Assembly (NCBI RefSeq): GCF_014651915.1
Contig: NZ_BMXU01000002.1
Span: 749,507-813,506, forward strand
Direction: 5' to 3'
From: Parvularcula lutaonensis
Lineage (GTDB): Bacteria > Pseudomonadota > Alphaproteobacteria > Caulobacterales > Parvularculaceae
Length of the DNA stretch: 64,000 nucleotides
Within the stretch, counting starts at the first letter, position 1, and each line of letters opens with the position of its first letter. A program made the position numbers and the translations under genes. Positions 53,408 through 64,000 of the stretch are shown in pieces. The notes beneath the pieces are model-generated. The model was not told where the DNA came from, searched no databases, and saw only the letters and a list, made by a program, of their open reading frames with translations.

Positions 53408-54856
53408 ATGCCCATGCACGACATCCTGACCACCGAGGCTCCGCATCCTGCTGGAGCAGCGTTGCGTGGCGAGCGGGTGCTCTTCACGATCTGCTCGAAG
53501 AACTACCTGCCGCAGGCCCGGATCCTAGTTCGCTCCGTGCGCGAACAGATGCCCGATGCCCCGGTCCGGGTCATTCTCTCCGATGAAGCCGAAGACCTCG
53601 GAAGGATCGCGGAGTATGTCGGTGCGGAAGTCATTCCGGGCAGGGCACTCGGGCTTCCGACCTATTACGACATGGCGATGCGCTACGACATCGTCGAGTT
53701 CAACACGGCGCTGAAGCCTGCCGCTTTCCTCCATTTCTTTGCGCAAGAAGCAAGAACGGCCGTCTACCTCGATCCCGACATCGAGCTCTTCCGCCCCCTG
53801 ACGGAAGTGGATGCGGCGTTTGAAGCTGGCGCGCAAGGCGTGATCACCCCGCATATCTGCGAACCGCTCGACATGGTCCACAATCCGACCGAGCTGAAGA
53901 TTATGCGCACCGGGATCTACAATCTCGGTTTTGCCGGGATCGCAAACACGGAAGAGGGCGTCAGCTTCACCCGATGGTGGGCACGGAAGATGCTGTCGGA
54001 CTGCCGGGTCGATCTTGATGCAGGGATCTTCGTCGACCAGAAATATGTCGACCTCATGCCGTCCTACCTGCCGCGTACGAAGATTCTCCGCCATAGGGGC
54101 TATAACGTCGCGTACTGGAACCTAGCCAACCGCGCGTTGACCCGCGAAGGCGATGGAAGCTTCGCGGTCAACGGCCAGCCGCTGGTCTTCATGCACTTCT
54201 CCGGCGTTCGTCCAGAAAAAGAAGACATCATCAGTGTGCATCAGGACCGCGTGAGCGTGGACGACCTCGGGGATGGAAAAGCCCTGTTCGACAACTACCG
54301 CGCAGAGCTGAAGCGTGCCCGCGAGGAGATGGCCGAGGCAGGCATCGAAAAGAGCTATGCCTACGGATCGTTCACGACCGGAGAAGCCATACCGCCACTT
54401 GCGCGCCAGGTCTATGCCAAGGCGATCCCGCCCATGCGGGTAAGCTTCGATGATGTGTTCGATCTTGAGAAAGGCCCCTTCAATCAGGGTGCTACAGGTA
54501 TCAACCACAGGAACCAGCGGCTGATCTCGCCAGTCATGGCAGACCTGTGGATGCGCAAGCCGTATTTGCAGGTCGCTTTCAACATTCGCGACCCGGAAGA
54601 GGCAAAGGCCTATGCGCTATGGTTCGCGGAAACCGGCTTCAGGGAGTGGAACATCCCGCCCGCCTTCATCCCAAAGGAAGCCTGGGAGCTGAACCGCCAG
54701 CGCAAGACCTTCCGAAGCCGGATGGCCGTCTTCGCGCTCCAGGCCCTTGAGCGGGGCAAGTGGTTCAAGTTCATGTATCCCAAGCCTGTCCGCAGGGCCG
54801 CCGTCCGGATCAACCGCAAGGTCCTTCCCCACCTCGTCAAGCGTATCGGTTCATGA
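53408..54856 (+). CDS. Glycosyltransferase with GT8-like YLDPDI motif
   Basis: A 482-residue protein. VLFTICSKNYLPQARIL, DMAMRYDIVEFNTALKPAAFLHFF and AVYLDPDIELFRPL (a DPD metal-binding motif) indicate a GT-A enzyme, and GIYNLGFAGI plus GYNVAYWNLANR follow. The same phrases recur in the N-terminal half of the next gene, so these two are paralogous. The C-terminal tail is basic with WFKFMYPKPVRRAAVRI. Specificity unknown. It overlaps the next gene by 4 bases (ATGA). Confidence 0.8.
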   Translation: MPMHDILTTEAPHPAGAALRGERVLFTICSKNYLPQARILVRSVREQMPDAPVRVILSDEAEDLGRIAEYVGAEVIPGRALGLPTYYDMAMRYDIVEFNTALKPAAFLHFFAQEARTAVYLDPDIELFRPLTEVDAAFEAGAQGVITPHICEPLDMVHNPTELKIMRTGIYNLGFAGIANTEEGVSFTRWWARKMLSDCRVDLDAGIFVDQKYVDLMPSYLPRTKILRHRGYNVAYWNLANRALTREGDGSFAVNGQPLVFMHFSGVRPEKEDIISVHQDRVSVDDLGDGKALFDNYRAELKRAREEMAEAGIEKSYAYGSFTTGEAIPPLARQVYAKAIPPMRVSFDDVFDLEKGPFNQGATGINHRNQRLISPVMADLWMRKPYLQVAFNIRDPEEAKAYALWFAETGFREWNIPPAFIPKEAWELNRQRKTFRSRMAVFALQALERGKWFKFMYPKPVRRAAVRINRKVLPHLVKRIGS

Positions 54857-57240
54857 CGACAGTCTATTTCTCGATCTGTTCCGCGAATTACATGCCCTAT
54901 GCGCGGACGCTCCACGCCTCCCTGACGCAGGCGGATCCGGATGCGGAGTTCATTCTCTTCCTCGCTGATGTCATCCCTGATGATCTCGACGCGTCCTCGC
55001 TTCCCTTCGAGGTTGTCGAGGCGATGGATCTCGGCATCGATACGTTTGCGGACATGGCGTTCCGCTACGACATCATGGAGTTCAACACGGCCATCAAGCC
55101 GTTCTGCTTCCAGCATCTGTTCGACCGCACGCCCGGCTCGCGGGCAGTCTATCTGGACCCGGACATCTATGTCACGAAGCCGCTGGCAGAGCTCGGCCAG
55201 TTTTTCGATCAGGGTGCCGAGCTGATTCTGACGCCTCACGCTCTTGCGCCGCTCGATGACGGTTATGATCCTGACGACCGGCGGATCATGCAGACGGGTT
55301 CGTACAATCTCGGTTTCGCGGCCATGGCGGATTCCTACGAGACGCGGGGGCTCCTCGACTGGTGGGCGTCACACATGCGCACGCGCTGCATCTCGAACCT
55401 GCCCGGCGGCCTCTTCGTCGACCAGAAGTTCATGGACATGGCCCCGGCCTTCGTGGAGCAGACCGAGATCCTGCGCCACAAGGGTTACAACGCAGCCTAC
55501 TGGAACCTGCACGAGCGGGAGATCATCAAATCCGAGGACGGATGGAAGGCAGGCGACGATCCGCTTGTCTTCTTCCATTTCAGCGGTGTCGAGCGCAACG
55601 ATCCTGAAGTCTTCTCGCGCCACCAGAACCGTTTCTCCGCCGAAGGGGCGGGGGATGCTCGCGAGCTTCTGGAGATCTACAAGGCAGCGCTGGCGAGCCA
55701 TGACGAGGACGCCTGGCGCAAAGTGCCCTATGCCTATGGCACGCATACGGACGGCACGAGGATTGTCGATGCCATGCGCAGGGTCTACCGCCGGGTCTGG
55801 CCGGAACCCCTGCACGCGGATCTCGACACGATCTTCACCTTCAATCCTGTCCTCTACAATCATCCCTCCGAAGAGCTGAAAGACCAGAGCGGCGCCCGCA
55901 TTACCCGGCTGATGCACGAAGTCTGGCGTATGCGGGCGGACCTGCGGGCAGCGTTCGCGCTGACGCGGGAGGATGGCCGTAAGCGCTATGCGGAATGGTT
56001 TGCTCAAAGCGCCGTCGCCCAGCACGGCTTCCCGACGGAACTCGTTCCCGGTGCGGTCGATGCCCAGCGAGGGGAGGGGGCGCCGGTGGAGCAACCTGTC
56101 AAAACCCCATCGCTCCCGGTCGATGGCTCCCTGCCCGAGGCGGTCAGGATGGTCGGCTATCTCAAGACCGAGAGCGGCCTTGGCGAAGCGGCCCGGAACA
56201 AGGAGGCAGCCTTGCGTGCCGCCGGCATTCCGGTCCTCAGGCGCACCATCCGCGCAGAGGGATTCGTCAATCTCGAAGGCGAGGATGCCGATGATCGCGG
56301 CGATGCGCGCATCCTCTACCTCCACGTCAACGCTGACCGGACCCTCGGTACGCTGGAGGCGCTGCCGGCCAAGGAAAAAGATGGCTGCTACCGCATCGGA
56401 TACTGGGCGTGGGAGCTGAGGACGTTCCCGGCCAATTGGGTCAGCGCAGCGGACAACCTGCACGAGATCTGGGTGCCCAGCCAGTTTGTCGCCGATGCCG
56501 TCCGGGAGCGGACCGACAAGCCCGTCCAACTCATCCCGCACCCCGTCGTCGTGACCCCCGGCAATCGGGAAGCGGGCAGGCAGGCACTTGGGGTCGAGGA
56601 CCCCGAAACCCTCGTCATCGCGACGATCTTCGACACCCGTTCCTTCATCAAGCGGAAGAACCCTGCCGGGGCTATCGAAGCCTTCCGCAGGGCCTTCCCG
56701 GACCCTGAGGCAGCCAACGCCGTCCTCGTTCTCAAGAGTCACGGCCCCCTCGACAGTGACCTCGCGCGGCAGGTCTTTGCCGAAGCGGCGACCATGCCGA
56801 ACGTCATCGTCCGGCATCAGGTTTTCACAGGACAGGACATGGCCGATTTCCAAGAGGGGATCGACGTCCTCCTCTCACCGCACCGGGCGGAAGGCTTCGG
56901 TCTCAACATCGCCCAGGCGATGGCCCGCGGGAAACTCGCGATTGCGACGGGCTGGTCGGGCAATGCGGATTTCATGACCGAAGCGAACAGCATGCCGCTG
57001 CGCTATGACCTCCGCCCGCTCGCGCCGGGAGACTATCCCTTCGCCGAGGGGCAGAGCTGGGCTGAGCCGGATATCACGCAGGCTGCCGAGTGCCTGCAGC
57101 GCGCAGCGGCCGATCCGGCCCACCGCCAGCGCCTGGGAAAGGCGGCGCAGCAGACCATGGAAGATGATTTCAGTATCGAAGCCATCGGTGAGCGATCGCG
57201 CCGGAGGCTGGCAGAAATTTTCGCCGCGACCGTGAGCTAG
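54853..57240 (+). CDS. Bifunctional glycosyltransferase: GT8-like plus GT4 modules
   Basis: A 795-residue two-module protein. The N-terminal module (1-about 330) repeats the previous protein's plan: YFSICSANYMPYARTL, DMAFRYDIMEFNTAIKPF, AVYLDPDIYVTKPL. The C-terminal module (about 430-795) is GT-B: VGYLKTESGLGEAARN, RIGYWAWELRTFPANW, EIWVPSQFVADAV, and HRAEGFGLNIAQAMARGKLA. Two catalytic sites would add two linkages or process in turn. The ATG overlaps the stop of the previous gene, so they are translationally coupled. Confidence 0.85.
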   Translation: MTTVYFSICSANYMPYARTLHASLTQADPDAEFILFLADVIPDDLDASSLPFEVVEAMDLGIDTFADMAFRYDIMEFNTAIKPFCFQHLFDRTPGSRAVYLDPDIYVTKPLAELGQFFDQGAELILTPHALAPLDDGYDPDDRRIMQTGSYNLGFAAMADSYETRGLLDWWASHMRTRCISNLPGGLFVDQKFMDMAPAFVEQTEILRHKGYNAAYWNLHEREIIKSEDGWKAGDDPLVFFHFSGVERNDPEVFSRHQNRFSAEGAGDARELLEIYKAALASHDEDAWRKVPYAYGTHTDGTRIVDAMRRVYRRVWPEPLHADLDTIFTFNPVLYNHPSEELKDQSGARITRLMHEVWRMRADLRAAFALTREDGRKRYAEWFAQSAVAQHGFPTELVPGAVDAQRGEGAPVEQPVKTPSLPVDGSLPEAVRMVGYLKTESGLGEAARNKEAALRAAGIPVLRRTIRAEGFVNLEGEDADDRGDARILYLHVNADRTLGTLEALPAKEKDGCYRIGYWAWELRTFPANWVSAADNLHEIWVPSQFVADAVRERTDKPVQLIPHPVVVTPGNREAGRQALGVEDPETLVIATIFDTRSFIKRKNPAGAIEAFRRAFPDPEAANAVLVLKSHGPLDSDLARQVFAEAATMPNVIVRHQVFTGQDMADFQEGIDVLLSPHRAEGFGLNIAQAMARGKLAIATGWSGNADFMTEANSMPLRYDLRPLAPGDYPFAEGQSWAEPDITQAAECLQRAAADPAHRQRLGKAAQQTMEDDFSIEAIGERSRRRLAEIFAATVS

Positions 57241-57341
57241 TCGCATGGTATACCGAATTTTCTGATGAATTAATCTCTGACGCATATTGCTAATGACCGG
57301 GGGGCACCGCTAGCTAACACCCAATTGGGGAAAACTGGGCT

Positions 57342-58709
57342 ATGGGGCAGACACGCGTCGGGCACGATCGGGACGTGCAAGATATGCGAGCACCGAGTGA
57401 CGGAAGTTCTCTTCGGGGACGCCACTTCCTGTTGCTGCAAGGGCCGTTCGGGCCATTCTACCTGCGCCTCGCTCGGGAGCTGACGGCGTATCACGCCGAT
57501 GTCACCAAGGTCATTCACAACGGTGCCGACGAATGGGGCTGGTCGCGCTCGTTCCCCGCTGTCCGTTTCCGCGACAAGGTCGAGAAATGGGGCGAATGGC
57601 TCGCCGAGCTGATCGAGGAGCGCGGCATTACCGATGTCATCATGCACTCGGACTGCCAGCTTTATCACCGCATCGCGGTGGACGTGGCGCGATCACTTGG
57701 TGTGAGGATTTATGTCACCGAGCAGGGCTATCTCCGCCCGCACTGGATCACGTTCGAGCGCGGCGGCGTGAATGCCAACTCGTCTCTGTTCTCCGAATTC
57801 GAGAACATCAAGACGTTCCCCGCGCTCTTCGCTTCGCGCAGGAAGATTGCCACGCCGACGGGCAAGCACACCCGCGCCTATGTGATCCGCACCAGTGTCG
57901 CGAACCTCGCGCTCTACTTCCATTGGCTGCAGTTTCCGAACTACTCGAACGCCTTCACCTATGCGCCCTGGCTGCAATGCGTCGGTCATATCCGCCGCTA
58001 CCTGCGCAACCGTTTCGGTGGCCGGAAGAAGAGCCTCGAACGTCTGCAATCGCTCATGCAGGGTGATGCCCCGTTCTACGTTGCGCTGCTGCAGCGTCCG
58101 GGCGACAGCCAGATCTACAACCATTCCCGCTTCGGCAAGCTCGGCGATTTCTGCGATGCGGTCATCGAAAGCTTTGCCCAGCACGCGCCCGCCAATGCCA
58201 AGCTGATGTTCAAGGCGCACCCGCTCGACCACGACCTCGACGATCACCGCAAGTGCATCGAGATCGCGGCGAAGAAACACCGTGTCGAGGACCGCGTGGT
58301 CTATGTCGATGGCGGCGTGCTCGGCCAGATCCTTCCGCGTGCGGAGGGTGCCATCACCATCAACTCGACCGCTGGCCTGACGTCGGTGGAGATGGGCTGC
58401 CCGACCATTTGCCTCGGCCGCGCGCTCTATGACGGAGAGGGGCTGACCCATCAGGGGCCGCTGGACGGGTTCTGGACCAAGCCGCAAAAGCCGGACGCCG
58501 ACCTCGTTCGCCGCTTCATCGGCTACCTCCTCATCAAGACCCAGATCAACGGCGACTTTTCGACGGACCACGGCATGCGCATGGCGATTGCCGGGATCAT
58601 CGGTGGCCTGATCTATGAGGCTGCGATCGAGAACAAGGAGGCTGAGGCCCCTGCTGCGATCCCCGCATCTCTTCCTCTCGACGAACAGCGCCGCGCCGCA
58701 ACGGGCTGA
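57342..58709 (+). CDS. kpsS: Capsular polysaccharide Kdo-linker transferase KpsS
   Basis: KpsS adds the first Kdo to phosphatidylglycerol, starting the capsule linker that KpsC extends. The 455-residue protein shows LLLQGPFGPFYLRLA, TKVIHNGADEWGWS, IYVTEQGYLRPHWITFERGG, FYVALLQRPGDSQI, FKAHPLDHDL and TINSTAGLTSVEMGCPTICL, the KpsS/LipB set. The ATG at 57342 is used; ATG 57384 is an alternative that removes a weakly conserved leader. It is 17 kb from kpsC and on the other strand. Confidence 0.9.
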   Translation: MGQTRVGHDRDVQDMRAPSDGSSLRGRHFLLLQGPFGPFYLRLARELTAYHADVTKVIHNGADEWGWSRSFPAVRFRDKVEKWGEWLAELIEERGITDVIMHSDCQLYHRIAVDVARSLGVRIYVTEQGYLRPHWITFERGGVNANSSLFSEFENIKTFPALFASRRKIATPTGKHTRAYVIRTSVANLALYFHWLQFPNYSNAFTYAPWLQCVGHIRRYLRNRFGGRKKSLERLQSLMQGDAPFYVALLQRPGDSQIYNHSRFGKLGDFCDAVIESFAQHAPANAKLMFKAHPLDHDLDDHRKCIEIAAKKHRVEDRVVYVDGGVLGQILPRAEGAITINSTAGLTSVEMGCPTICLGRALYDGEGLTHQGPLDGFWTKPQKPDADLVRRFIGYLLIKTQINGDFSTDHGMRMAIAGIIGGLIYEAAIENKEAEAPAAIPASLPLDEQRRAATG

Positions 58710-59637: not shown

Positions 59638-60142
59638 CACAACGCCGCCCAGAACGACAATCGGCACGCCCGGCTGGATGGCCCTGCAAAACGCTCGACG
59701 CTGTGATCCCTCCGCCCTGACCCCCCGCGCCGTCCGGTGCTTCCGCGATGATACCCATAGCGGAGGAGAGACTGGGAAGCTGATTCTTTCCCCGTCTCCG
59801 TCAAGCCTGCTGATGCCAGCCCTAGGAATAGGCACCGGCGGAACGGGTCAGTTCGGGCAAGTCACGGATCCGAGAAACGGCTGATGATCACGACCGTTGA
59901 CGAACGCGGAACAAGAGCCAGATCAGAAGCCGTGGGCGGGGCCGACCCCCCGGATCAGCAGGGGCAGGAGCCCGAGAAGCCACTCCTCACGATAAGTTTG
60001 ATTCGTGGGTGGGGCGCGGAGCCTAGAGCCCGAGAACGGGCGGGGCTAGCAGACCGCCTGCCTTGCTGGCCGGGAGCGTCTGCTGTCCGGCCTCACTGGT
60101 CGCAAGAGGAATTATTACACCCGGCGTAAGGAGCGCTAGACG
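59638..60142. other. Intergenic region, no gene supported
   Basis: About 505 bases between divergent genes. Apart from the half-site at 59822 and the ribosome site AAGGAGCG before 60143, nothing was recognised. A small open frame at 59884-60129 lacks bias, motifs and a ribosome site. It should carry the promoters of the kinase gene and of the hibernation-sigma fusion. Confidence 0.5.
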
Positions 60143-61294
60143 ATGAAAACGAAGTTCGCATTCGAAAATCTTGCTTCGGCCGAACGGGATCGTGCCGAGC
60201 GCAAGCTCGCTTCCCTCGTGGATGGACTTTCATCGCGCGAACTGGCGCGCGTACCGGCCGATCTCGTGCGGATGGAAGCCCATTTGGAACGGCGGGGAAA
60301 CAAGAACCTGTACCGGGCGTCGCTGCGCCTCTCGCTGCCATCGGGCACCCTGTTCGCCGATGAGGAGGCCGCGGAATTGGACCTGGCGCTGAACGAGGCT
60401 GCTAAAGAGCTCGAACGTCAGGCGCGCCGTCACATGGAGAAGGTCCGCCGCGAGTATCACTGGCAGCAGACCCGTCGGCGCCAGCGCATGGAAGCGCTTC
60501 GCCAGCCGCCTGCCGACGTGCAGGCCCAGGAACGCCGCCAGCTGTTTTTTGACTTGATCGAGCAACATCTCGACCGGGTCTGGACGTACGCCTGGCGCGA
60601 GCTGCGCTACCTCGAGGCTTCAGGATCGATCCCTGCCGGCGCGCTGAGTGTCGAGGACGCTATCGATGCTATTCTCGCAGAAGGTGCCAAGCGTTTCGAA
60701 GAGCGGCCAACGGAATTCTCCGTGGACGAATGGCTCCTGAAGCTGACCGTCGAGACCTTGGAGGCCGAAGCCCGCCGCGTGGCCCGGACCCTGCCCGCCG
60801 ATGCCCTTTCGCTCGAAGACGAGGTGCCCGAACCTGCCACCGACCCCACCACAGCGGACGAGGAATTCTACGAGTTCTACCAGCCTGATGACGCTCCGCG
60901 GCTGGAGGACGTCGTGCCCTATCCGCAGGCGCATTCTCCCGAGGCGGAGCTGGAAGAACGCGAGGAGGCGCTGGCCGTCCATCGCGCCTTGTCGCAGCTT
61001 CCGCAGCGGTGGCGTCACGCCCTTGTCCTTTCCTTCATTGAGGACATGCCTCGCGACCGGGTGGCCTCAATGCTGGGTGTGACCGAGAAAGAACTCGGCG
61101 AGATGATCGACCGTGCCCTGACGGTCCTCCGTGCCAAGCTCCTGGATGACCAGGTCGATAGCGAGGCTCTCTCCGACGGGCGGGTGGCCGACCACCTGCG
61201 CAACACCCGGCGGATTGTCGTTCATCAGGCGATGCGTCTCCGGCTGGCGCGTGCGCTTGGCATTGAAGCACCAGTATCGACCAACGCCGACTGA
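60143..61294 (+). CDS. Sigma-70-like protein with N-terminal HPF/RaiA-like domain
   Basis: A 383-residue protein. Residues 1-about 100 resemble a ribosome hibernation (HPF/RaiA) domain: ERKLASLVDGL, LVRMEAHLERRGNKNLYRAS, LRLSLPSGTLFADEEAAELD and NEAAKELERQARRHMEK, a beta-strand pair and a long helix. Residues about 130-215 resemble sigma region 2 (LFFDLIEQHLDRVWTYAWRE). After an acidic linker, 278-332 form a sigma-4 helix-turn-helix (ALSQLPQRWRHALVLSFIED, then ASMLGVTEKELGEMIDRAL). The fusion is unusual. Whether it binds ribosomes, RNA polymerase or both is unknown. An AAGGAGCG precedes the ATG. Confidence 0.75.
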   Translation: MKTKFAFENLASAERDRAERKLASLVDGLSSRELARVPADLVRMEAHLERRGNKNLYRASLRLSLPSGTLFADEEAAELDLALNEAAKELERQARRHMEKVRREYHWQQTRRRQRMEALRQPPADVQAQERRQLFFDLIEQHLDRVWTYAWRELRYLEASGSIPAGALSVEDAIDAILAEGAKRFEERPTEFSVDEWLLKLTVETLEAEARRVARTLPADALSLEDEVPEPATDPTTADEEFYEFYQPDDAPRLEDVVPYPQAHSPEAELEEREEALAVHRALSQLPQRWRHALVLSFIEDMPRDRVASMLGVTEKELGEMIDRALTVLRAKLLDDQVDSEALSDGRVADHLRNTRRIVVHQAMRLRLARALGIEAPVSTNAD

Positions 61295-61297
61295 AGC

Positions 61298-61328
61298 TGT
61301 CCGGGGCGCGTGCTTCGCGCCCCGGACA
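61298..61328 (+). terminator. Strong 13-bp hairpin after the sigma-HPF gene
   Basis: TGTCCGGGGCGCG (61298-61310), loop TGCTT, CGCGCCCCGGACA (61316-61328): a perfect stem beginning 3 bases after the stop codon. There is no T-run behind it, so it may be a transcript-stabilising or attenuating hairpin before the downstream membrane protein gene rather than a full terminator. Confidence 0.55.
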
Positions 61329-61355: not shown

Positions 61356-61964
61356 ATGAAGCGCAGTTTCACCCGCCGCGACGTCGCCTATCTTGTTGTG
61401 GCAACCGTTCTGGCCGTGGCTGGCTACGGATTGTTCCGTGCCATGTATTTCGCGGGCGAGCCGTTGCCGTTTGCGCAGGAGATGGTCCTCGTCTTCCTCG
61501 GCGCCGTCGCGACGATCTACCTGACAGCGGTTCTCTTGAACCGGCAGACGGAGCTGGAGCTGCGCAAGGAGGGCCGCGTGATCGTCCTGCAGCAGAAGGC
61601 CGACACCTATATGGCCTGCATCGAGAAGGTGGCCGAGATCGTCGAGACGGCGAACCACGACCCCCGCCTGATCGATGAGCTGCGGGTGCTGAACCACAAA
61701 CTGGCCATCGTCGGCAGCGGCGCTGCGGTGCGCCAGTTCTGCGCTGTGCTCGACCGCCTCCTTGAAGGCCTCAAGGATGGTGACATGACCAATGTCGAGG
61801 GCGAGTCGGTGATGCAAGCCCTTGCCGATCTGACCGCCGCCATGCGGACCGATATCCTGCAGGAAATTGGCATCGACGGCGAAGGCGACATGCTGGACGC
61901 GATCCGCCGGAACTCGCGCCGGATGGAAGCGCTGGACGACCTGGGAGAGAAACCCGGCGGATGA
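61356..61964 (+). CDS. Hypothetical membrane-anchored protein
   Basis: A 202-residue protein: basic N-terminus (MKRSFTRRD), two helices (VAYLVVATVLAVAGYGLF and EMVLVFLGAVATIYLTAVLL), then a cytoplasmic predicted-helical region with QQKADTYMACIEKVAEIVE and NSRRMEALDDL. The frame is open upstream into the sigma-HPF gene, but the hydrophobic N-terminus places the start here. No family recognised. Probably in the same transcript as the sigma-HPF gene. Confidence 0.65.
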   Translation: MKRSFTRRDVAYLVVATVLAVAGYGLFRAMYFAGEPLPFAQEMVLVFLGAVATIYLTAVLLNRQTELELRKEGRVIVLQQKADTYMACIEKVAEIVETANHDPRLIDELRVLNHKLAIVGSGAAVRQFCAVLDRLLEGLKDGDMTNVEGESVMQALADLTAAMRTDILQEIGIDGEGDMLDAIRRNSRRMEALDDLGEKPGG

Positions 61965-62777: not shown

Positions 62778-64000
62778 TCATTCGGCAGGGTGGCCCGGAG
62801 CGCCCTTGATGTCGGGGATGCCTTTGGTCGAGTCGCCTTCGCCGAGCTTCGGCTGGCGCTTGCCCGTCCAGATCCCGCGGAAGAACCGGGCGATGTCTGC
62901 ACCGACCGCGTACATCGCGGGGACGAAGAACAGCGTCACAAAGAGGGCGAAGGCCACGCCGAAGGCGAGGCTGACGACCACGGGTTTCAGGAACTCGGCA
63001 TCAAGGCTCCGCTCCAAGAGGATGGGCAGCAGGCCGATGAACGTGGTGACCGAGGTTAGCAGGATCGGGCGGAACCGCACCGTGCCTGCCTCGACGAGAG
63101 CTGCGAAGGCTCCGGCTCCCTGCGCCCGGAGGCGGTTCACGTAATCGACCAGCACCAGGTTGTCGTTCACGACCACCCCTGCGGCGGCTGCAATGCCGAA
63201 GAAGGAGAAGATCGAGAACTCGATCCCGAAGATCGCGTGCCCGAAGATCGCGCCCATATAGCCGAACGGGATCGCCGACATGATGAGCAGGGGCTGCCAG
63301 TAGCTGCCGAAGGCGATCGCCAGCAGCATGTACATCCCGAAGAGGGCCGCAGCCATGGTCACGAGGAAGCCGCTGAAAAACTCGGCCTGTTCCTCGTCGC
63401 CGCCGCGGCGGACAATGTCCACGGCAGGGTATTTCGACAGGATACGCGGCACGATTTCGCCGTAGAATTCCTGGCGCAGGGGACCGGCATCGGCGCCTTC
63501 GCGGATCCGCGCGAAGATCATCACCGAGCGCTTGCGGTCGGTGCGCCGGATGAAACGAACCGCGGGACCGGTCTCGAACTCGACGACGGAGCTCACCGGG
63601 ATTTCGCGACCGTCGGGGGTCCGGATCCGGAAGTCGTTGTAAAGACCTTCGAGACTTTCCCGCGTCTCCTTGGGGTAGCGGACCATCACGCGCACGTCCT
63701 GGCCATCGCGGGGGAGGCGCTGGACCTCCTCGCCGTAATAGGCCTGACGGAGCTGGCGCGAGACATCCTGGACGCTGACGCCGAAGCGTTCTGCACCCGG
63801 ACGGAGCTTCAGGCGCAGCTCGTCGAGCGGAGCCTGAAGGTTGTCGCGGACATCGTAGAGGATCGGCACCGAGCGGAGATACTCCTTGATCTCGTCGGCC
63901 GCCGCCGCCGCCTGGTCGAGATCATTGGTCTCGATCGCCAGCATGAAGCGATTGGCACCGCCGCCGAAATCACTCTCGAGCGAGATTTCCTGAGCATCGG
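62778..64000 (-). CDS. RND efflux transporter, C-terminal part (5' end beyond window)
   Basis: The frame is open to the right edge, so the start lies beyond 64000. The visible 406 residues are the second half of an AcrB/MexB-type inner-membrane proton antiporter or heavy-metal/drug RND. The porter subdomain has LRLKLRPGAERFGVSVQDV and FRIRTPDGREIPVSSVVEFE. The membrane helices include FGMYMLLAIAFGSYWQPLLI, GIAAAAGVVVNDNLVLVDYV and RPILLTSVTTFIGLLPILLE, the RND signature. A charged cytoplasmic tail follows. Substrate unknown. Confidence 0.9.
   Translation of the reverse strand, partial: DAQEISLESDFGGGANRFMLAIETNDLDQAAAAADEIKEYLRSVPILYDVRDNLQAPLDELRLKLRPGAERFGVSVQDVSRQLRQAYYGEEVQRLPRDGQDVRVMVRYPKETRESLEGLYNDFRIRTPDGREIPVSSVVEFETGPAVRFIRRTDRKRSVMIFARIREGADAGPLRQEFYGEIVPRILSKYPAVDIVRRGGDEEQAEFFSGFLVTMAAALFGMYMLLAIAFGSYWQPLLIMSAIPFGYMGAIFGHAIFGIEFSIFSFFGIAAAAGVVVNDNLVLVDYVNRLRAQGAGAFAALVEAGTVRFRPILLTSVTTFIGLLPILLERSLDAEFLKPVVVSLAFGVAFALFVTLFFVPAMYAVGADIARFFRGIWTGKRQPKLGEGDSTKGIPDIKGAPGHPAE

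Follow-up and report, generated by a model that had tools for sequence, protein, structure and literature searches.

An HPF/RaiA domain fused to a sigma-factor-like protein in Parvularcula lutaonensis and in heat-resistance islands of other proteobacteria

Ribosome hibernation factors of the HPF/RaiA type include the ordinary long HPFs, in which a C-terminal domain of another kind than the one described below dimerises ribosomes. ECF sigma-70 factors carrying fused regulatory domains are also known. Among the genes of the tLST (or LHR) heat-resistance islands of Escherichia coli, Klebsiella and Acinetobacter, orf11 encodes a protein with less than 30% identity to anything of known function, according to a review (PMC8290217). 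Deletions made in E. coli MG1655 showed seven of the 13 genes to be necessary for resistance to heat or chlorine; orf11 was not one of these, and its removal from the E. coli tLST reportedly did not lower heat or chlorine resistance (PMC8407380). This reported lack of a phenotype suggests that the role of orf11 is regulatory or condition-specific rather than part of core protection. The gene described here, which belongs to the same family as orf11, lies in a stretch of 64,000 nucleotides (the window) from the alphaproteobacterium Parvularcula lutaonensis, and it joins an HPF/RaiA domain to a sigma-factor-like protein.

Architecture and predicted fold of the fusion protein

The features of the locus, in window coordinates and with the evidence for each, are as follows.
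60128..60133, + strand: ribosome-binding-site-like AAGGAG, 9 nt upstream of the fusion ATG (direct reading of the sequence)
60143..61294, + strand: fusion ORF (P0001), open, 383 aa, ATG start, HPF/RaiA-sigma-like
60143..60457, + strand: HPF/RaiA (Ribosomal_S30AE) domain, residues 1-105 (PF02482, model, Z 15.7, dN/dS)
60377..60499, + strand: long second helix, residues 79-119 (alignment, model)
60518..60790, + strand: divergent sigma2-like domain, residues 126-216 (TIGR02937, alignment, model helices)
60851..60913, + strand: disordered linker joining the two sigma-like domains and carrying the signature DEEFYEFYQPDD..LED of the family (alignment, model)
60938..61147, + strand: sigma4-like helix-turn-helix domain, residues 266-335 (PF08281, alignment, Z about 10)
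61298..61328, no strand assigned: inverted repeat, 13 bp and perfect (TGTCCGGGGCGCG/CGCGCCCCGGACA), in the gap that separates the fusion ORF from the downstream gene (sequence)
61356..61964, + strand: small membrane-protein-like gene, 202 aa (tblastn, 60% to a 206-aa tLST hypothetical protein)

An earlier note on this DNA had read the N-terminus as HPF-like and the remainder as sigma regions 2 and 4 of an ECF-like factor, and profile searches bear out this reading. Pfam Ribosomal_S30AE (PF02482) matches residues 14-102 (E 7.6e-7; 30.2 bits against a cut-off of 23.7), and Sigma70_r4_2 (PF08281) matches residues 277-326 (33.5 bits against 25.7). The ECF-like character is upheld by the NCBIfam profile TIGR02937 (sigma70-ECF), which spans sigma2 and sigma4 at residues 137-333 with 50.3 bits, above its cut-off of 42.9; the NCBIfam TIGR00741 match falls below its equivalog cut-off. 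In the Pfam scan Sigma70_r2 was not matched, and sigma2, which the note had already called divergent, is for that reason considered divergent here as well.

The predicted structure points the same way. The AlphaFold2 model, built from a 3-sequence alignment only (mean pLDDT 68.6; a deeper alignment would be preferable), places residues 1-119 in a beta-alpha-beta-beta-beta-alpha order, which is the HPF topology, at a block pLDDT of mostly 76-91. Its residues 1-101 superimpose on V. cholerae HPF (4hei) with Z 15.7 and an rmsd of 1.3 over 91 residues (VIA-align), so that an HPF fold is present where the note had placed one, at residues 1-105. The sigma2 and sigma4 helices are predicted with moderate confidence (pLDDT mostly 65-83), and the linker (residues 220-264) is disordered in the model. 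The helices at 126-160, 170-187 and 194-216 fit sigma2 with modest confidence, in agreement with the sigma-2 fold called at 130-215. By VIA-align, residues 261-340 match SigL region 4 with Z 10.3, and residues 128-345 match an EcfG-type sigma (5uxx) with Z 10.1 and an rmsd of 5.7, a value to be expected if the linker is flexible. HPF and sigma structures both rank at the top of the Foldseek results for the model.

Searches of plasmids with tblastn returned relatives in 86 records, and in 77 of these a single place covers at least 80% of the protein, colinearly and at 22-42% identity; the domain order of the window protein is thus kept in its relatives. The fusion of an HPF/RaiA domain with a sigma-factor-like protein is therefore genuine, and the full-length colinear relatives together with the predicted fold rule out a chance fusion, an assembly artefact or a mis-joined ORF. 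That this is an ordinary ECF sigma whose N-terminal likeness to HPF is accidental, or that the ORF is mis-joined, could be entertained while the call rested on sequence pattern, and no tool result backs it; it is refuted by independent profile, fold and colinearity evidence, and we regard it as extremely improbable.

Family members and their genomic setting

Identity to the window protein is 37-42% in alpha members, 31-35% in most beta members (28% in one shorter member) and 22-25% in gamma members. Pfam S30AE is found in 14 of 18 members taken singly, and the linker residues Q247-P248-D249 (QPD) are invariant in the alignment of the family. Within the class, relatives at E 1e-8 or better occur in three of 384 other genomes drawn, two of the three being full-length. 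Searches of the 60 nearest relatives gave ordinary ECF-like sigma4 matches only and no copy of the fusion, and this absence rules out a genus- or family-wide gene. With so few carriers, the fusion is rare and its occurrence sporadic, which is what one would expect of a mobile gene. A profile-profile comparison aligns the gamma orf11 with the alpha and beta members at probability 99.9 (E 1.8e-35, columns 1-351). The family is widespread and conserved and apparently not previously described, and its gamma-proteobacterial member is tLST orf11, which thereby gains a concrete domain identity. The component domains were known already; neither the fusion nor its family, nor the recognition of orf11 as such a fusion, was found in the open literature (subscription papers being largely outside this coverage), and judged on that literature all three are apparently new.

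The sigma-only relatives (L031, L147 and L148) form a separate branch of the tree with support 100/99; they share sigma2, a QP[DE]-type linker and a sigma4-like end, and have no HPF domain. Because this well-supported branch has the same linker type, a sigma-like family already divergent from ordinary ECFs must have existed beforehand, and the HPF domain was either added to it or lost from it. The family tree has long branches, that of the window protein included, and the exact place of the window protein in it is unsure. Two copies depart from the common form. In Roseomonas mucosa (L078 9001-10116, alpha) an in-frame deletion of 22 residues removes the core of the sigma4 helix-turn-helix, and a plasmid copy of Cupriavidus sp. 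P-10 (L077 9001-9897), annotated as two adjacent ORFs, is apparently a decayed fusion gene.

The strongest clue to the fusion protein, absent from the earlier note, is its link to heat-resistance islands of the tLST type. The plasmid members studied in detail belong to protein-quality-control islands, which contain either Hsp20s, ClpG/ClpK, FtsH and HdeD or GroEL/DnaK. On alpha plasmids the usual order is three divergent Hsp20 genes, MarR, FtsH, a ClpG/ClpK-type AAA protein, the fusion gene and HdeD, followed by a 206-aa hypothetical protein, NDUFS4-like, rhomboid, ClpP-like, TrxC and KefB genes. In Burkholderia and Paraburkholderia the fusion gene is flanked by an Hsp20 group and groES-groEL-dnaK, and in Cupriavidus and Caballeronia Hsp20, GroEL and DnaK genes are near it. 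The gene comes after hdeD-GI in Enterobacter, Klebsiella and Acinetobacter, and in most of these copies it stands ahead of trx-GI; this gene is tLST orf11, which 152 of 5426 complete E. coli genomes carry and which also occurs on Klebsiella and Acinetobacter plasmids. The sigma-only relative L148 adjoins tLST-type rhomboid and ClpP genes. A viral origin was considered and rejected, as viral contigs yielded one match only, a tLST island beside phage-tail-like genes. In that IMG/VR contig (L085 1-17110) the island directly adjoins the phage-tail-like ORFs, and it may be described as a prophage-borne or prophage-adjacent heat-resistance island.

In the window, the fusion gene has a ROK kinase gene on one side and the 202-aa membrane-protein-like gene on the other. 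The latter (61356..61964) has no Pfam match; its tLST homologue is, in the alpha islands, the second gene downstream of the fusion gene. Between the fusion gene and the 202-aa gene a strong RNA hairpin is predicted at 61298..61328 (fold z -4.2), which is not a classic terminator because it has no T run. Elsewhere in the same genome, at about 366-378 kb of contig C1 (L142, L143), are genes for HdeD (61%), ClpG (84-85%), FtsH (74%), an NDUFS4-like protein (37%) and YfdX (51%), together with an ECF factor and three Hsp20 genes. As the ClpG/FtsH/HdeD/Hsp20 cluster is on C1 and the fusion gene with its downstream neighbour is on another contig, C2, a tLST-like set is present but split. An ordinary HPF gene is found at C1:1333084. 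Further out in the window, glycosyltransferase and capsule-synthesis-like genes (54760-58709) precede the ROK kinase gene. Downstream of the fusion gene, 62778-63944 on the minus strand belongs to an RND efflux pump of the AcrB type (whole gene L072 5285-8440), beyond which are an adaptor-like ORF and an outer-membrane-factor-like ORF.

The two halves and their possible roles

For the sigma half, 22 family members were aligned with 29 ECFs from related genomes and four PhyR sequences; a fifth PhyR row, being a neighbouring ECF and not PhyR, was left out. The glutamine of region 2.2 is present in 28 of the 29 ECFs and in none of the 22 family members, where it is replaced, mostly by Asp. The net charge of the -35 recognition helix (residues 313-332 of P0001) averages -0.86 in the family (range -2 to +1), against +2.17 in the ECFs (range 0 to +5) and about -5.8 in the four PhyR; the helix is thus neutral or acidic, tending towards the PhyR sigma mimics. 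In gamma members the sigma half is still more degenerate. The earlier note had imagined a protein that might connect the state of ribosomes with the start of transcription, and the second part of that idea is weakened, at the level of sequence, because the whole family lacks residues that characterise sigma2 and the sigma4 recognition helix in ECFs. Judged by its sequence, it looks doubtful that the sigma half is still active in transcription.

These results bear on the possibility, in our judgement somewhat unlikely, that the protein is a working ECF-type sigma with the HPF domain as an inbuilt sensor, which the binding of idle ribosomes would restrain or activate, so that promoter use by the stress island would follow ribosome state. 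Such a sigma would agree with the TIGR02937 match over its cut-off across sigma2 and sigma4, with model helices that fit both domains, with purifying selection on both, with the label sigma-70 family factor that many members bear in RefSeq, and with the precedent of ECFs carrying fused regulatory domains. It is opposed by the loss of the region-2.2 glutamine in 22 of 22 members, by an acidic or neutral recognition helix, by a sigma2 that Pfam Sigma70_r2 does not match and by the further degeneracy of gamma members. Its bolder form, an active sigma set directly by ribosome occupancy through the fused hibernation-factor domain, on mobile heat-resistance islands across proteobacteria, seems to us quite unlikely; if true, a single protein would link idle ribosomes and promoter choice.

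In HPFs basic residues of helix 2 meet 16S rRNA, and the HPF half of the fusion has kept some of them. On helix 2 (79-119), R92, R96, K100 and R102 retain part of the HPF basic face, and the R112-R113 pair, invariant in the family, has been gained relative to ordinary HPFs. Compared with HPFs of related genomes, basic residues are kept at position 96 in all members, at 100 and 102 mostly and at 92 in half; they are lost at 89, 98 and 99 in all members and at 93 and 95 in most, so that, of the positions on helix 2 that are basic in ordinary alpha HPFs, roughly half are no longer so. The pattern fits a retained basic face, and ribosome binding, while plausible, is not assured by it.

Selective constraint differs between groups. 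In alpha and beta groups dN/dS of the HPF domain is 0.12-0.21. In the alpha groups the HPF domain has the lowest values and sigma4 and the C-terminal tail the highest (0.32-0.56; 0.32-0.44 for sigma4 together with the tail); in the beta group HPF and sigma4 both stand at 0.18. The HPF value is 0.57 in the nearly identical gamma group, and a gamma dN/dS of 0.63 is weak evidence either way, as there are few differences among gamma copies. Constraint is clear for sigma2 and the linker motif, and in the beta group for sigma4 as well. A protein that is mainly a heat-stress ribosome hibernation or protection factor, with a leftover sigma half that now serves as its C-terminal structural or dimerising domain, would accord with the HPF domain being the most conserved part in alpha groups and with the ribosome dimerisation performed by the C-terminal domain of long HPFs. 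We consider it improbable: sigma2, the Q247-P248-D249 linker and beta sigma4 are clearly constrained, and sigma-only relatives share the linker signature without an HPF domain, and one of these has tLST-type rhomboid and ClpP genes next to it. That sigma4 is as constrained as HPF in beta members argues in particular against the sigma half being purely vestigial.

What this analysis shows directly is the architecture, the existence of the family, its association with islands and the constraint acting on it. The reading that we prefer, tentatively and at somewhat less than even confidence, is that the fusion is a member of a tLST-type proteostasis-island family in which a long basic helix connects a putative ribosome-docking domain, of the HPF/RaiA type, with a degenerate sigma interaction module of the ECF type. 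The N-terminal domain would dock, as HPF/RaiA, on the small ribosomal subunit or on idle 70S ribosomes under proteotoxic stress. The sigma-like half would chiefly make contacts with other proteins, as an adaptor or sigma mimic touching the RNA polymerase core or an anti-sigma factor, and probably not as a promoter-reading sigma factor; the protein may in this way tune transcription and/or translation while the chaperones and disaggregase of the island repair the proteome. Counted for the island-family reading are the HPF fold and profile, the sigma superfamily match, the cross-class relatives, the island context, the degenerate sigma, the HPF-weighted constraint, the alpha copy without the sigma4 helix-turn-helix core, the tLST-like genes on C1 of the window's genome and the adjacent tLST protein at 60%. 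Counted against it are the orf11 deletion without loss of resistance, the basic losses on helix 2, the beta sigma4 constraint and the position of the window gene outside the tLST-like cluster. With a domain identity for orf11, it can be tested directly whether one protein of a mobile stress island acts on both ribosomes and RNA polymerase.

Comparison with known systems

Ordinary HPF/RaiA proteins (YfiA, Ribosomal_S30AE) resemble the N-terminal 105 residues of the fusion in fold, profile match and basic face on helix 2; the fusion differs in having lost part of the basic helix-2 positions and in carrying a sigma-like half, and, unlike long HPFs, it has no long-HPF C-terminal dimerisation domain. 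With ECF sigma-70 factors (sigma2-linker-sigma4) it shares the superfamily profile and two helical domains joined by a linker, but it lacks the region-2.2 glutamine and the basic recognition helix, and has an N-terminal HPF domain and a disordered linker of about 40 residues with a family-specific motif. The sigma-like domain of PhyR, an anti-anti-sigma mimic, is similar in its sigma2- and sigma4-like halves, its non-basic recognition helix and its lack of the region-2.2 glutamine, and the fusion has a weak PF22233 match (21.2 bits, below the curated cut-off of 27); unlike PhyR, it has no receiver domain in the Pfam scan, and no NepR-like partner gene was seen adjoining the fusion gene. The sigma-only relatives are alike from sigma2 to the sigma4-like end and differ in the missing HPF domain. 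The tLST/LHR orf11 product of the E. coli, Klebsiella and Acinetobacter islands is colinear with the window protein over 351 columns and has the QPD linker motif, whereas identity is about 22% and the gene of the window genome stands outside the main tLST-like cluster.
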